Shown here piece after piece: positions 13,773-19,668 of a DNA stretch of 37,900 nucleotides (its first letter is position 1; each line of letters begins with the position of its first letter). A program made the position numbers and the translations under genes. The notes beneath the pieces are model-generated. The model was not told where the DNA came from. It saw nothing but the letters and a program-made list of their open reading frames with translations, and did no database searches. The DNA comes from an uncultured Flavobacteriales bacterium (lineage in GTDB: Bacteria > Bacteroidota > Bacteroidia > UBA10329). Where the stretch lies: the NCBI GenBank assembly GCA_937900875.1, contig CALCGD010000293.1:1-37900 (forward strand), written 5' to 3'.

Positions 13773-14558
13773 ATGAAAAAGATTTGGAACTTGTTATTTG
13801 CTGGAATACTTATCGGATTTATATCAGGATGTAACTGCGATTGCGACAAAAAGGATGGTGAGGAAACCGCGGTTGCTGCTACTGAAACTGCCTCAATGAA
13901 ATCTGTCGAGGCTAAAGCTGTAGAAATGATTGAGGTTTCTACGATAGATAAGATTACGGAGTTCCCTATTTCATGGGATCAAAGAGGCCAGAAAGGTTAC
14001 TACCACATATGTGTGAGGACCGACACTGATAAGGGTAAAACCTTGTTGAAGTTGAAAGGAGCAAAAGGGTATACCGAGAGCGAATTGGAAATTGGAGCTG
14101 ATGGTGTAGGGTTATCTTGCTATGTAAGAGCTAATGGCGATACTGTGCTCGTAGTCGACCCACGTTGCGTTGGTTGTCCATCATCAACTGAAGATGGATT
14201 TGCGATTAAAGTTTCTGATATAGGGGCCATTGGAGCTCACAATTTCGAGATTGTACCACACTACAAGTACGCTGGCAGTGGGACGGACAATCTATGTATT
14301 ATTGGCATGGACGATGCACGTGATGGTAATTATACAGGAGCTAGTCCTTCAAATGGGTTTTATGCCGAATTCAGGGACATCACACTTGCCCGTAGAACAG
14401 TTATTAAGTTATCTTATGACTTAACGTTTCCAGTAGGCACAAATGGCTCGATGTACTTGACCGCTAGATACCTTAGCTCAGCTAAGTATAATGACAAAGA
14501 TCAACCTGCTGGCACCACAGCACGTTCAAAACCGGTTATTGATTGGACTTGTAATTAG
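13773..14558 (+). CDS. Cysteine-rich lipoprotein of unknown function
   Basis: The 261-residue protein has a lipoprotein signal peptide ending GFISGC, with Cys20 as the lipidated residue. More cysteines follow at once (CNCDCDKK). A low-complexity Ala/Glu/Thr linker (about 30-55) leads to a beta-rich region with further cysteines (HICV, LSCYV, RCVGC, NLCI) and a Cys two residues from the end. I recognise no domain. Eight bases separate it from the deiminase-like gene downstream, so the two are almost certainly co-transcribed. It may be a partner or substrate-presenting protein, but that is inference. No clear promoter element is seen in the 118 bases upstream. Confidence 0.75.
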   Translation: MKKIWNLLFAGILIGFISGCNCDCDKKDGEETAVAATETASMKSVEAKAVEMIEVSTIDKITEFPISWDQRGQKGYYHICVRTDTDKGKTLLKLKGAKGYTESELEIGADGVGLSCYVRANGDTVLVVDPRCVGCPSSTEDGFAIKVSDIGAIGAHNFEIVPHYKYAGSGTDNLCIIGMDDARDGNYTGASPSNGFYAEFRDITLARRTVIKLSYDLTFPVGTNGSMYLTARYLSSAKYNDKDQPAGTTARSKPVIDWTCN

Positions 14559-14566
14559 CTGAATTT

Positions 14567-16351
14567 ATGATTGATGGTGTTGCAAGAAAGTCCTTAATAG
14601 TTTGCCAATTTCTAGGGTTGGCATTAAGTGCTAGCTGTCAGTCGATTCAATCTGGCAATACTCTTATTGATTCTCACAATGGCAGAATCAGCAAGGTGCT
14701 TATTTCTTTGGTGGGTGCAGAAAGTACAGTCCTACCTACAACTGAAAATATCAGTAAAGACCGTGTCGCTTCCTTCTTTCTGAATCGTTTAAAATGTGAT
14801 GCATGTTTAGTCTGGGTTCAGCTCAGTAAGGGCTCAGTATTGGTATGGCCGAAAGTTGACAGTCTAGTTGAATTCAGTTTTGCAAGTGATAATGACATTC
14901 GAGAGGAACTGAATGCTATTAAACTAAGATTTGATTCGGCCAGAGCTTCTATTATTGCGAACTCAATTGTATTTGAGCTCCCTTTGTCGGAAGATGCATT
15001 CTTAAAAAGTTTCCTTGATAATCAATGGGAAAAGAAGTTGACAAATCAAGTTGCGAAAGACAACTCTGTGGAGGCTCTTTTGGATTCGGGTAGATTTGAA
15101 ATCGAGCGATATGTTTATTGCTATTTTGATGATGGTGAATTCAGAGTAGTAGCGGCACCGACTAGTGAATTATTTGGCTCAGCTGATGATAATCTTCAAA
15201 GTTTGATACAACTTGACGCTCAGTGGAGAGTTGCATACCAGCAGTATGTTTCCACTTTGCAATTTGAAAATAGTGATTCAACCTTCAATTGGTTAAAGTG
15301 CGTCTCATCCAGGGCTATCGACCCAACAATGGCTTACAGTTACTGTAATGGGCTGAATCTGAAAGAATGTGAGAACCTACTTCGACAATCAATGTATTTC
15401 TGGATTCAGGATAAATTCAACACAGTTGAGGAAATCCCATCTACTGGAATTTCAAAGGTTCAATCTAACTATATGCCAAAATCTGGAGCAGGAATTTCTA
15501 TGAGTCACGTGCTTTCTCAGTTTGTTGGCAATCATTGTAGTGGTCTTGATACATATGCAGGGAATACTGTCGTTCAAGGCGGAAATATTCTCTATTCAAA
15601 AGACTTTGCGCTAATTGGAAGAGATGCTTTGAGTATTTATATGAATAATAATAACTCCTATGCTTATGAACAGATTGGTCTCGATTCAACCACGAATGTT
15701 AAGGATTCAATAGAGGAGAGATTGAAACTGGAACTTAATCTGGGTGCGAGAGATATTGTCTGGGTGGGTACGAATGATTCAAGAGACACTTATGATTTTA
15801 GTCATCCTAAATTGAATATACCATTGTTCCATATTGATATGTTTTTGACTTTAGGTCCGATTAAAATAATTGATGGTAAAAAGCACATCACCTATTTGCT
15901 TGGAATTCCGGAATTAGCAAATTCTGGAGACCGTATCAAGCCAGGGATGGATAGTACAATTAACGTTTTGGTTGATTGGATTAAAGAGTGTCGCGATTCG
16001 TTGAATGTTCAGTTGCAAAAAATTGACCATGTGCCAGAAATCATCGAAATCCCTTTGCCAATTGTATTAGCTGAATATAACCCTATTTCGTATGGTCCTG
16101 ATTTTGGATGGGAGCACAAAGTGTTTTACTACTATGGTTTCAACAATGGATTGATGGAATGTGTAAACGATTCATGTTGGTATCTTATGCCGGAAATTCA
16201 AACTCGAGAAATTCCACCTAAGCATTCCGTTTGGGGGAAGCGTGTCAAGGCTAAACTGGATTCAGCTGGCATTGGTGTGATTCCCATTTTCAACAGTATC
16301 GAAAGTAATTGGGCCATTCACTGCAGGGTTAAAGTGCTTAATCGCCAATAA
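14567..16351 (+). CDS. Secreted guanidine-modifying enzyme (arginine/agmatine deiminase fold)
   Basis: The 594-residue protein carries the residues of the guanidine-modifying superfamily, which includes peptidyl-arginine and agmatine deiminases. They are FWIQDKF with D282 (guanidinium-binding Asp), VQGGN (336-340), FHIDMF with H422 and D424 (general base and second Asp), YGPDFGW (509-515), FNNGLMECV (525-533), and NWAIHC with C586 as the nucleophile. Spacing and order match the family, in which this set hydrolyses a guanidine to a ureido group plus ammonia. The N-terminus resembles a signal peptide ending ALSASC, so Cys24 may be lipidated. Residues about 40-260 form an extra domain I do not recognise; ordinary agmatine deiminases have about 350 residues. 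It overlaps the convergent downstream gene by 14 bases. The substrate is unknown; a protein-arginine substrate is plausible because it appears to be exported. Confidence 0.72.
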   Translation: MIDGVARKSLIVCQFLGLALSASCQSIQSGNTLIDSHNGRISKVLISLVGAESTVLPTTENISKDRVASFFLNRLKCDACLVWVQLSKGSVLVWPKVDSLVEFSFASDNDIREELNAIKLRFDSARASIIANSIVFELPLSEDAFLKSFLDNQWEKKLTNQVAKDNSVEALLDSGRFEIERYVYCYFDDGEFRVVAAPTSELFGSADDNLQSLIQLDAQWRVAYQQYVSTLQFENSDSTFNWLKCVSSRAIDPTMAYSYCNGLNLKECENLLRQSMYFWIQDKFNTVEEIPSTGISKVQSNYMPKSGAGISMSHVLSQFVGNHCSGLDTYAGNTVVQGGNILYSKDFALIGRDALSIYMNNNNSYAYEQIGLDSTTNVKDSIEERLKLELNLGARDIVWVGTNDSRDTYDFSHPKLNIPLFHIDMFLTLGPIKIIDGKKHITYLLGIPELANSGDRIKPGMDSTINVLVDWIKECRDSLNVQLQKIDHVPEIIEIPLPIVLAEYNPISYGPDFGWEHKVFYYYGFNNGLMECVNDSCWYLMPEIQTREIPPKHSVWGKRVKAKLDSAGIGVIPIFNSIESNWAIHCRVKVLNRQ

Positions 16352-17738
16352 TCTCGCTCATTTTGCGGTTTTGCAAATGACTTTTTGCCCACAAGCTCAA
16401 TTCTTCGGTTCCTATTGTCCTCCTTTTTTTCGAATCATTCATGATGCTGTCTAGTTCCTCACTAAAGGCCACAAGCTTAGTTCTGAATTCTGTTTGATCT
16501 GAACTCAATGGCATGCCTTTCAGGTAGTTTAAGACTAACCGTTCAAATTCGTGCAAGCGATTTTTCTTTTGAAGAAACCGATAGGCAGATCTAGTAAAAG
16601 ATTCAACGAGATCTACATGACCAAGTTCAAAATGAATAATCGGTAGCAGTAAAATGCCGACAAATCGTTGGTCTTGCTTTATTTCACTTGAATCGGTCAT
16701 CATTGGTTCAATCCAATTCAAGGCATCTTTGAATCTATGCATTACAAAATACATCACCATAATATTGAATCGAAATGCGATTTTCCTTGCCTGGTTGACC
16801 TTCGCTTCATACTTAACAAGACCTTGCTCTATAATTGGGACTAGAGCCACAGCCTTTTCAAATTCTCCATGGTTAATGTAGAAGAGGTGTTCCTGGAAAT
16901 AGACGTTCTGAAATACTTCTCCTTCCTCATTAAATGAACTAGTAGGAAGGGATTTCATTTCTTCCAATGCCTTGGTAAACCAGTCTTCTTCTTTAGCCGA
17001 AAGAGCACGAGCCATTAGGTTTGCCAAGCATACTTTGTAATTCAGGGCGTCCTCAGTTTTTAGATGCTCCGCACGCTGGTAGATTTCATATTCATTTTTC
17101 GTATGCTGAAAACTCGCTTTCCAATTCCGTTGTAAATGGAAATAGTTGCTATTAGCTCGTTCAAAAAGACACTGAAGTCTATAAGAGTCGCCAATACGAG
17201 TTCGATAACGCTCCACTTCCATGTATAACATTTCCACCCTGTTATTAACGGTAGAATCCTGCATATCTGCCCCAGATCTTAAAACACTAAACAGCTCCCT
17301 GTTTTTCGCTTGCAATTCCAACTCACTTTCCTGCGTGATGAAAAGTTGCTTCTGCTCGTTAATTAGCTGAACAACTGGTTTAGTTAGGTGCTTCTTTTCA
17401 AACTCAATCACAAAACCTGTTTGCCTCAACAGAATCTCCTTTAATAAATGGAATCGTTCAGCATTGGTAGCTAACTCCTTGGCTTTAAGCAAAGCTTTTT
17501 CACGTAGGTCATTTAGACCTTTTTCTTGGTAAAAGATTTCATCCTGCAGCAGTTCGTTAATCTTATTGTCCACGGTTCTACCTGAATGAAACAAGCGCAT
17601 CTGCTTCATTATTTGTTCGCGCAACTGTTTCTTTTCTGCAGATAGGTATTTAACGAATGGCTTTTTGGCGTGCTTCTCTTTTAGTTTCTGTTCATCATAT
17701 TCATCTCCTTGAGCATCCATAGCCTCAAATAGCTGCAT
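16338..17738 (-). CDS. Helical (TPR-like) Bacteroidota protein, N-terminus displaced by frameshift
   Basis: The 466-residue open frame is rich in Leu, Glu, Lys and amphipathic helices and has no signal peptide, so it looks like a cytoplasmic TPR-type repeat protein. The start of this frame (MQLFEAMDAQ, followed by EYDEQKLKEKH and FVKYLSAEKKQLREQIMKQMR) matches the interior of a Bacteroidota family. In that family a further ~35 residues precede it, with a TPSEKRYF motif. Exactly such a sequence lies upstream in another frame (17749-17838). The ATG at 17738 is therefore probably not the ancestral start. Function is unknown. The stop overlaps the end of the deiminase-like gene by 14 bases. Confidence 0.7.
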   Translation of the reverse strand: MQLFEAMDAQGDEYDEQKLKEKHAKKPFVKYLSAEKKQLREQIMKQMRLFHSGRTVDNKINELLQDEIFYQEKGLNDLREKALLKAKELATNAERFHLLKEILLRQTGFVIEFEKKHLTKPVVQLINEQKQLFITQESELELQAKNRELFSVLRSGADMQDSTVNNRVEMLYMEVERYRTRIGDSYRLQCLFERANSNYFHLQRNWKASFQHTKNEYEIYQRAEHLKTEDALNYKVCLANLMARALSAKEEDWFTKALEEMKSLPTSSFNEEGEVFQNVYFQEHLFYINHGEFEKAVALVPIIEQGLVKYEAKVNQARKIAFRFNIMVMYFVMHRFKDALNWIEPMMTDSSEIKQDQRFVGILLLPIIHFELGHVDLVESFTRSAYRFLQKKNRLHEFERLVLNYLKGMPLSSDQTEFRTKLVAFSEELDSIMNDSKKRRTIGTEELSLWAKSHLQNRKMSEIIGD

Positions 17739-18107: not shown

Positions 18108-18770
18108 ATGAAAACGTTAAACAAAAATGAAGAAGTGAGTGTGAGCATGAAAGCCGCACTTAACAGGACAGATACCACCCCTCGTCCAAAAATTGGGGAC
18201 AATGACGGAATCTCTGATAAAGCAATGAACCTGATTATCACACTCTTAATGATTCTTACCATGGGCATTAGCATTGCAACTGCCGCTCCAACCGAGGATG
18301 TGAAGTATAGAATCATTCTGCGACAGGCTATGCTAGACATGGACAGAATGGATTACGATAAGGCCATTACAAAATTGTTGGAAGTACGGGCCAACACGGA
18401 AGAAACGGCCAATGTGAATCACATGTTGGGTCTTTGCTACCTCTACGGAGAGGGTTCTGCTGAAAAAGCGGCTTTCTACCTGAACCGTGCTGCAGAACAC
18501 ATTTCTGCCGAATATGAGGAGTGGGATTTAGATGAGACGAATGCACCGGTGCAAACTGCTTATCACTTGGCAAAAGCTTACGAAGAATTGCAAGATTTTG
18601 CAAAAGCAGCCAAATTCTACGGACAATTCCTCACCTATTTGGAAAGTGATGCTCAATTGGCTTCTGCTAGAACAAAGGAGATAATTAGTCGAAACGCCAG
18701 TAAATGTGAGCAAGCAGCTTTAGAAACGGGAGAAACTACAATCCCTGTAAATGTAGTGTTGAACAAATAA
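18108..18770 (+). CDS. TPR protein with an N-terminal membrane segment
   Basis: The 220-residue protein has a polar N-terminal stretch (1-37), then a hydrophobic segment (about 39-58) and a periplasmic-looking TPR region. The repeats resemble the N-terminal TPR module of Bacteroidota PD40-OmpA (PorE-like) proteins: YDKAITKLLEV, NVNHMLGLCYL, KAAFYLNRAAEHIS, then APVQTAYHLAKAYEELQDF and AAKFYGQFLTYL. Propeller and OmpA domains are absent. It is probably anchored in the inner membrane with the TPRs outside; alternatively Met40 starts a signal peptide. It is followed after 11 bases by a second TPR gene of similar layout and then a LuxR-type gene. Confidence 0.8.
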   Translation: MKTLNKNEEVSVSMKAALNRTDTTPRPKIGDNDGISDKAMNLIITLLMILTMGISIATAAPTEDVKYRIILRQAMLDMDRMDYDKAITKLLEVRANTEETANVNHMLGLCYLYGEGSAEKAAFYLNRAAEHISAEYEEWDLDETNAPVQTAYHLAKAYEELQDFAKAAKFYGQFLTYLESDAQLASARTKEIISRNASKCEQAALETGETTIPVNVVLNK

Positions 18771-18781
18771 TCTTAGAAATC

Positions 18782-19333
18782 ATGAAAACAATCAAAACAA
18801 TAGTACCAGCAATTTTAATCGGAATCTTATTCCTAATGCAATCGGGAAGCGCAAAGGCTCAAATGAGCGAGTACAAATTCAAACAACTGTTTGACCAGGC
18901 TTTTCAGCTAACAATTTCTGAAGAGTATAACCAAGCATTTCCAATCTGGAGACGACTGGTGAAAGTTGACAAAAAGCACGGTCAGGTTCTTTATTTCTAT
19001 TCTGTTTGTCGGTTTAAGGCCTTGGGTTCTTACACATCTACAGAAGCCATGCTACGCAGCGCAGCTAATAGAACCGATTACTACAACCAAATTGGAAGAG
19101 CTGAGGACAAAACAGCACCAGTTAAGGCTTGGTTTTATCTAGGCGAGGCATATGCAGAAAGCGCACAGTACAAAGGAGCTATTGAAGCGTATCGGAACTA
19201 CATGAGCTGCATTCCAATGGCATCTCTGGATCATAAGCGAGAGGTAATCGCAAAAATCAAGGAGATGAAGGAACAGCTTCGGTTGACTAAGGAGTATGGA
19301 AACACCTCTCTAATTGCAAGCCAGAAGCCATGA
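18782..19333 (+). CDS. Secreted TPR protein
   Basis: The 183-residue protein begins with a signal peptide (1-26, ending SAKAQ) and then TPR-like helices: EEYNQAFPIWRRLVKVD, QVLYFYSVCRFKALG, and APVKAWFYLGEAYAESAQY followed by AIEAYRNYM. The order matches the preceding protein segment by segment, so the two look like diverged paralogs. It is a free-standing copy of the TPR module otherwise fused to PD40 and OmpA domains. The stop overlaps the ATG of the LuxR-type gene by four bases (ATGA), so translation is coupled. Confidence 0.8.
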   Translation: MKTIKTIVPAILIGILFLMQSGSAKAQMSEYKFKQLFDQAFQLTISEEYNQAFPIWRRLVKVDKKHGQVLYFYSVCRFKALGSYTSTEAMLRSAANRTDYYNQIGRAEDKTAPVKAWFYLGEAYAESAQYKGAIEAYRNYMSCIPMASLDHKREVIAKIKEMKEQLRLTKEYGNTSLIASQKP

Positions 19334-19668
19334 ACGACCCGAGAGCTAAGAGACCAACCACTGCCGATTTGATTGATACTAGACATCAAGAATGGATAAA
19401 ATCGCTGAAAGTGGAGAGAAAAGGAACTGAACCGATAGTTATTAATCTTCCAGCAGATAAATGGGGGAAAACGGCCAAAGGATTATCAGAAAGAGAGTTG
19501 GAAGTATTACAACTGGTATCGTTCGGATGTAGTTCTGCAAAAGTGGCAGAGAAGCTGTTTATCAGTACTCACACCGTTACTAATCACAGGAAGAACATGC
19601 TGAGCCGATCGAGATGTGGAAATCTGGCAGAACTAGTAAGAGTTGCAATTGAGGAGAACCTGCTTTAA
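19330..19668 (+). CDS. LuxR-type HTH protein without receiver domain
   Basis: The 112-residue protein carries a C-terminal LuxR/GerE helix-turn-helix (about 50-108): GLSERELEVLQLVSFGCSS, then AKVAEKLFISTHTVTNHRKN with the recognition helix near 80-92. The N-terminal 50 residues are polar and match no receiver or autoinducer domain. Full-length regulators of this class are about 200 residues, so it is a DNA-binding module alone, presumably controlled by its level or by a partner protein. It is the third gene of the TPR-TPR-LuxR operon. Its last codons form one arm of a terminator hairpin. Confidence 0.87.
   Translation: MNDPRAKRPTTADLIDTRHQEWIKSLKVERKGTEPIVINLPADKWGKTAKGLSERELEVLQLVSFGCSSAKVAEKLFISTHTVTNHRKNMLSRSRCGNLAELVRVAIEENLL

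Follow-up and report, generated by a model that had tools for sequence, protein, structure and literature searches.

What does the window, a 37,900-nucleotide stretch of DNA from an uncultured Flavobacteriales bacterium, encode in P0001, a protein that carries the catalytic motifs of guanidine-modifying enzymes yet finds no credible match among the families of Pfam, NCBIfam, PADLOC or PHROGs, and what might that protein act on? Our answer, to which we give a little less than an even chance, is a Cys-dependent deiminase that has diverged strongly within the peptidyl-arginine deiminase (PAD)/agmatine deiminase superfamily and works with a small protein encoded immediately upstream. The features of the locus are collected in Table 1.

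Table 1. Position, strand and basis of the features discussed (coordinates are those of the window; residues are those of the protein named).
Feature	Coordinates	Strand	Basis or remark
Partner, predicted lipoprotein of 261 aa, 8 bp upstream of the enzyme gene	13773..14558	+	Conserved neighbour; lipobox ISGC at residues 17-20
IIGMDDAR, hydrophobic-GxxDxR loop of the partner, residues 176-183	14298..14321	+	Conserved motif
P0001, GME-superfamily (deiminase-like) enzyme, 594 aa	14567..16351	+	ORF, motifs, conserved tetrad, Foldseek
Signal-peptide-like N-terminus of P0001, residues 1-24	14567..14638	+	Hydrophobic peak at residue 10; predicted helix 2-23
First GME-fold strand, residues 36-48 around GRISKVLISL	14672..14710	+	Aligns with the start of compact homologues (376-390 aa)
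First-blade insertion, about residues 50-265	14714..15361	+	Absent from compact homologues; low model confidence
W279-x-Q281-D282; D282 the predicted guanidine-binding Asp	15401..15412	+	Motif and homologue alignment
GGN, residues 338-340	15578..15586	+	Motif and homologue alignment
H422-x-D424	15830..15838	+	Motif and homologue alignment
C586, predicted nucleophile	16322..16324	+	Kept in 76/76 homologues
BT2802-like helical-repeat protein, convergent, overlapping the enzyme gene by 14 bp	16338..17738	-	NF058569, 1.4e-15
TPR protein 1 of the module	18108..18770	+	
TPR protein 2 of the module, signal-peptide-like start	18782..19333	+	
LuxR/GerE-type DNA-binding protein, end of the module	19330..19668	+	PF00196, 2.3e-15

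P0001 contains the ordered set Asp ... GGN ... His-x-Asp ... Cys of the guanidine-modifying (GME) superfamily, its Asp, His-x-Asp and Cys lying in FWIQDKF (278-284), FHIDMF (421-426) and NWAIHC (581-586). The chain runs for only eight residues beyond the cysteine and finishes with R593-Q594. Across 76 aligned homologous cores, D282 is Asp in 74 (the remaining two are gaps), H422 and D424 are kept in 75 (one gap) and C586 in every one; W279, N340, N527 and R593 show next to no variation either. Conservation this near to total argues that the motif set is not a product of chance. The first-pass annotation, made from the sequence by itself, had named D282, GGN at 338-340, H422, D424 and C586 as an active site; the positions are correct, and its Asp/His/Asp/Cys residues are those kept in 74-76 of the 76 cores.

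It had also proposed a fold comparison as a check, an unrelated fold counting against the idea. The AlphaFold2 model of P0001 (35 rows) has an overall pLDDT of 60.7, with many core strands at 80-96. Searched against the PDB with Foldseek, it matched best to the agmatine deiminase 6b10 (6.5e-10, TM by target 0.52), followed by 2ewo (9e-8), the PAD chains of 9xrl (4.5e-7) and DDAH (3.5e-4). The model of one better predicted homologue (L105) matched AgDI at 1.7e-15 and PAD3 at 5.2e-10. With these AgDI, PAD and DDAH matches, the predicted fold of P0001 is the five-bladed alpha/beta propeller of the GME superfamily, so the idea withstands this check; by homology and by this match, the catalytic residues would be expected to meet in a single pocket.

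Sequence comparison reaches the superfamily in steps. By BLAST, P0001 leads to L003 at 1.2e-8 and L003 to L048, a Vibrio maritimus plasmid protein, at 8e-14; L048 scores 39.5 bits in the Pfam PAD_porph family (PF04371), whose cut-off is 25. Superfamily membership, as the annotation had claimed it, is borne out by this chain together with the conserved tetrad and the Foldseek matches. In P0001 itself no match to PF04371 (PAD_porph/agmatine deiminase family) or to PF03068 (animal-type PAD) and no PAD_N or PAD_M domain was detected. PDB sequence searches gave no direct match for P0001 or its larger profiles, and a four-sequence profile gave only chance matches to PDB sequences. PF03068 was matched at E ≤ 0.01 by eight of thirty-two homologues, one of them above the cut-off. 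In the relatives inspected these matches were confined to about forty residues of the Cys region, so we set them aside as proof of kinship with animal-type PADs.

Genome searches, in which the genomes compared were drafts, found homologues of P0001 in the same genus (G007, G004 and later G002) and in other Bacteroidia. Iterated profiles added compact forms of 376-443 aa without a signal peptide, and scanning 84,980 species genomes with a pattern brought in seventy-one further loci from several phyla. Deep support in the enzyme family tree is weak. A first scan of genome contigs with P0001 and a tblastn search of phages returned no matches; one apparent relative (L005) was a spurious match, and matches of about 306 aa in family f21 resembled other amidinohydrolase-type proteins and were set aside. 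A broader profile also matched frames of about 580-620 aa in most genomes of the window's genus. Homologues without a partner occur across many phyla, which indicates that the GME fold itself is independent of the partner.

The annotation had further described about 220 extra residues in front of the catalytic region as an unfamiliar N-terminal domain, and the protein as exported. The extra residues exist, but most of them are an insertion between the strand at 39-46 and W279. That strand (GRISKVLI, with a conserved G39) is the first of the enzyme and precedes the insertion, which rules out a separate N-terminal domain. The inserted segment, unplaced in the AlphaFold2 model, interrupts the catalytic fold and is variable; compact relatives do without it. 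Export fared better in part: it is plausible in the window's genus, whereas compact relatives elsewhere have no signal peptide. Judging signal peptides by hydrophobicity only, we found a hydrophobic enzyme N-terminus in the window, G004 and G002; no signal peptide was seen in the G007 enzyme, although its partner is lipoprotein-like. The pairs of G093, G116, G231 and G176 have neither a lipoprotein-like partner nor a hydrophobic enzyme N-terminus, and the pair appears to be cytoplasmic in several lineages. The same genome also encodes, as a separate gene, a conventional exported PAD_porph protein (G000:C230, at L199:1058-2785), which matches PF04371 at 1.4e-38 (133 bits) and carries a T9SS tail (Por_Secre_tail, PF18962, 1e-7).

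The upstream protein has a single reliably conserved feature, a hydrophobic-GxxDxR motif, the rest being hypervariable; in the first set of partners the D was present in 11/11 and the R and the G in 10/11. Sixteen cassettes carry a partner before, after or fused to the enzyme. It lies upstream in Bacteroidia, where all of the cassettes found except L011/L016 have an equivalent gene, and downstream in Saprospiraceae, with the motifs AIGSEDIR (L090), IIGGSDIR (L113) and WIGADDIR (L121). At another Saprospiraceae locus (L105:5596-7449) there is a natural fusion of the enzyme to a C-terminal domain, predicted at a pLDDT of about 30-50, that reads VVASDFR, the motif minus its glycine. The partner's own profile matched only in genomes that have the enzyme. 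Among small ORFs of the loci, the strict motif was found in 12/70 enzyme neighbours and in 7/404 others, a count that is not independent, as most of the twelve loci had defined the motif; the motif recurs in five further loci that had not been used to define it (L090, L113, L121, L105 and G008).

At the syntenic locus of G008, the first profile searches matched neither protein, but the partner carries FIGIDDVRGA, and the enzyme, later matched by the broader profile at 2.3e-13, keeps WVQD, GAN, HMD and the terminal C...R. The G008 enzyme frame (L154:6100-7782) has an in-frame stop between its N-terminal and catalytic parts. Partners start like lipoproteins at all five genus loci (window, G004, G002, G007 and G008), and the catalytic residues are retained at all five despite enzymes that are only about 22 per cent identical. 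The two stay paired even where compartment or gene order has changed, where the genes have fused, and in spite of very rapid divergence.

Conversion of arginine to citrulline is the reaction of enzymes to which P0001 is related. The reading that we favour, tentatively and at just under an even chance, is that P0001 is a peptidyl-arginine deiminase and that the loop arginine of its dedicated partner is the substrate. The loop arginine would enter the enzyme's pocket, where D282 and D424 would hold its guanidinium; C586 would attack it, with H422 as acid/base, leaving citrulline and making the partner a dedicated substrate. In the window's genus the target would be a lipoprotein anchored in the membrane, and the reaction would be extracytoplasmic. 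We prefer a substrate to an adaptor mainly because the partner conserves the very residue on which PADs act, an arginine. Conservation of DxR is equally compatible with an inhibitor or a binding loop. Also counting against the substrate reading are a partner in G176 that lacks the arginine, the G007 enzyme without a signal peptide, and the partner-less homologues of many phyla. More generally, the dedicated GxxDxR partner suggests, and strengthens the case for, modification of a protein or peptide.

Within the genus, the genes run SH3, partner, enzyme, BT2802-like, TPR1, TPR2, LuxR and exosortase-like. Mean pairwise identity is 22 per cent for the enzyme and 23 per cent for the partner, against 54 per cent for the BT2802-like protein, 56 and 41 per cent for TPR1 and TPR2, and 58 per cent for LuxR; the other flanking genes stand at 60 (exosortase-like), 56 (SH3), 67 (MFS), 65 (HemW-like), 81 (histidine kinase) and 66 per cent (AsmA-like). 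In G001 the SH3 gene directly adjoins the exosortase-like gene, the six-gene module between them being absent as a unit, and the transporter that precedes SH3 is absent as well. A BT2802-like gene lies near the pair in 16/16 partner-bearing cassettes, and its orthologue (at least 41 per cent identity) is found in the same five genomes as the pair. The family is generic, with about eighty copies in G013 (e.g. L135-L148), many of them beside large proteins with signal-peptide-like starts; this looks like one regulator per surface protein. Multiple copies beside unrelated genes weaken the case for the neighbour as a specific component of the system. It is probably a local regulator, and the flanking BT2802-like, TPR and LuxR genes together probably regulate the pair.

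Such extreme divergence between ordinarily conserved flanks suggests recognition or conflict under strong selection. It also feeds the main rival reading, which we hold to be rather unlikely: that the partner inhibits the enzyme in the manner of an antitoxin or immunity protein, its DxR loop occupying the guanidine pocket as a pseudo-substrate to silence a harmful deiminase, the whole being a fast-changing conflict module. Both proteins diverge very fast compared with their neighbours, as this reading would expect, and it also draws on the absence of the module as a unit from G001. The settings of some relatives point the same way. On an Aureispira plasmid (L121; NZ_CP133672.1, 49352-62341) the pair lies between type III-B CRISPR (Cmr) and TIR-domain genes, a subtilase lies between regulator and enzyme at L090, and trypsin-like proteins, identified by sequence reading only, stand beside L113 (where Pfam gave no match) and L049. 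Against an inhibitor, PADLOC gave no match for the enzyme, the partner or the helical-repeat neighbour, no delivery domain was seen, and the pair's apparently cytoplasmic location in several lineages fits poorly. In G176, one partner (L014:2476-2991, L014/L019) reads GDPTN and no longer has the motif arginine; the enzyme next to it has an intact motif set and would thus be left uninhibited. Two further pairs in the G176 genome both keep the arginine. We also rejected a known defence system or phage family as the identity of the pair: besides the PADLOC result, the sole hit was a weak match (2.5e-3) of the partner's first sixty residues to a PHROG of unknown function.

Other neighbourhoods in the family are varied. 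One of the genes in the TIR-domain run at L121 is ThsB-like, and a nucleoside 2-deoxyribosyltransferase-like gene is also present. The enzyme relative on a Paenibacillus polymyxa plasmid (L049, 7749-10896) is followed by a protein read as trypsin-like plus DNA/RNA non-specific endonuclease, and that on a Rhizobium daejeonense plasmid (L122) comes after YcaO, TfuA and a small ORF in a RiPP-like cluster. In G037 (L016:4309-6781) a partner-less homologue adjoins a second GME-type gene, presumably a CtlX-like amidinohydrolase. The settings of L121, L090, L113, L049 and L122 suggest roles in peptide or protein modification or in conflict in parts of the family; they are not evidence for the window's gene.

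In a second alternative, which we consider decidedly unlikely, the enzyme would citrullinate other proteins, surface or foreign, and the DxR protein would be an unmodified adaptor, anchor or activator. A predicted lipoprotein partner beside a putatively exported enzyme in the window's genus would suit this arrangement, a hypervariable pair could track variable targets, and the PPAD of Porphyromonas acts on other proteins (PMC4487231). By itself, however, it leaves the conserved arginine, the substrate residue of the class, unexplained. A last alternative, which we regard as very unlikely, has the enzyme hydrolysing a small guanidine (arginine, agmatine or a derivative of arginine) in the periplasm, with a ligand-binding lipoprotein as neighbour: the nearest solved folds are agmatine deiminases and one homologue is annotated as 'agmatine deiminase family', but P0001 has W-x-Q-D where the PAD_porph protein of the same genome has W-x-R-D, an identity of 22 per cent between species is unexpected for a metabolic enzyme with neighbours at 41-81 per cent, and the GxxDxR loop is left without a role.

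Protein citrullination is well studied in animals; in bacteria, to our knowledge, few cases have a defined target (PPAD and the citrulassins). Because the partner is encoded alongside the enzyme and conserves a single arginine, a specific pair of bacterial enzyme and target could here be tested directly and cheaply. Taken more broadly, the locus may represent an undescribed class of dedicated deiminase-target pairs in Bacteroidota, in which a hypervariable enzyme citrullinates, or is locked by, one arginine of its equally hypervariable partner, with module-wise gain and loss and defence-like settings in some lineages; bacterial protein citrullination would then serve as a self-contained switch or conflict system. 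This we rate some way below an even chance.

P0001 shares with the PF04371 family the fold and the order D/GGN/HxD/C, with L048 as the bridge, and differs in having WIQD where G000:C230 has WFRD, a first-blade insertion (roughly 160 residues) and a GxxDxR partner. Like G000:C230 and the PPAD of Porphyromonas gingivalis, it would be an exported bacterial member of the deiminase superfamily; unlike G000:C230, which has a T9SS tail, P0001 has no Pfam match to a T9SS C-terminal sorting domain. Animal PADs (PF03068, PAD2-4) resemble P0001 in a first motif of the W-x-Q-D type, as in PAD4, and are among its structural matches, but there is no full-length sequence match, and PAD_N and PAD_M domains were not detected. 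The convergent neighbour falls near the BT2802 family (NF058569) but below its curated cut-off. A parallel in logic is the citrulassin PAD, a bacterial lasso-peptide arginine deiminase whose target is a single conserved arginine, within GNDR, in a ribosomal product dedicated to it (PMC12971885). That PAD is encoded away from its short-peptide substrate, and its likeness to the P0001 pair is one of analogy only.
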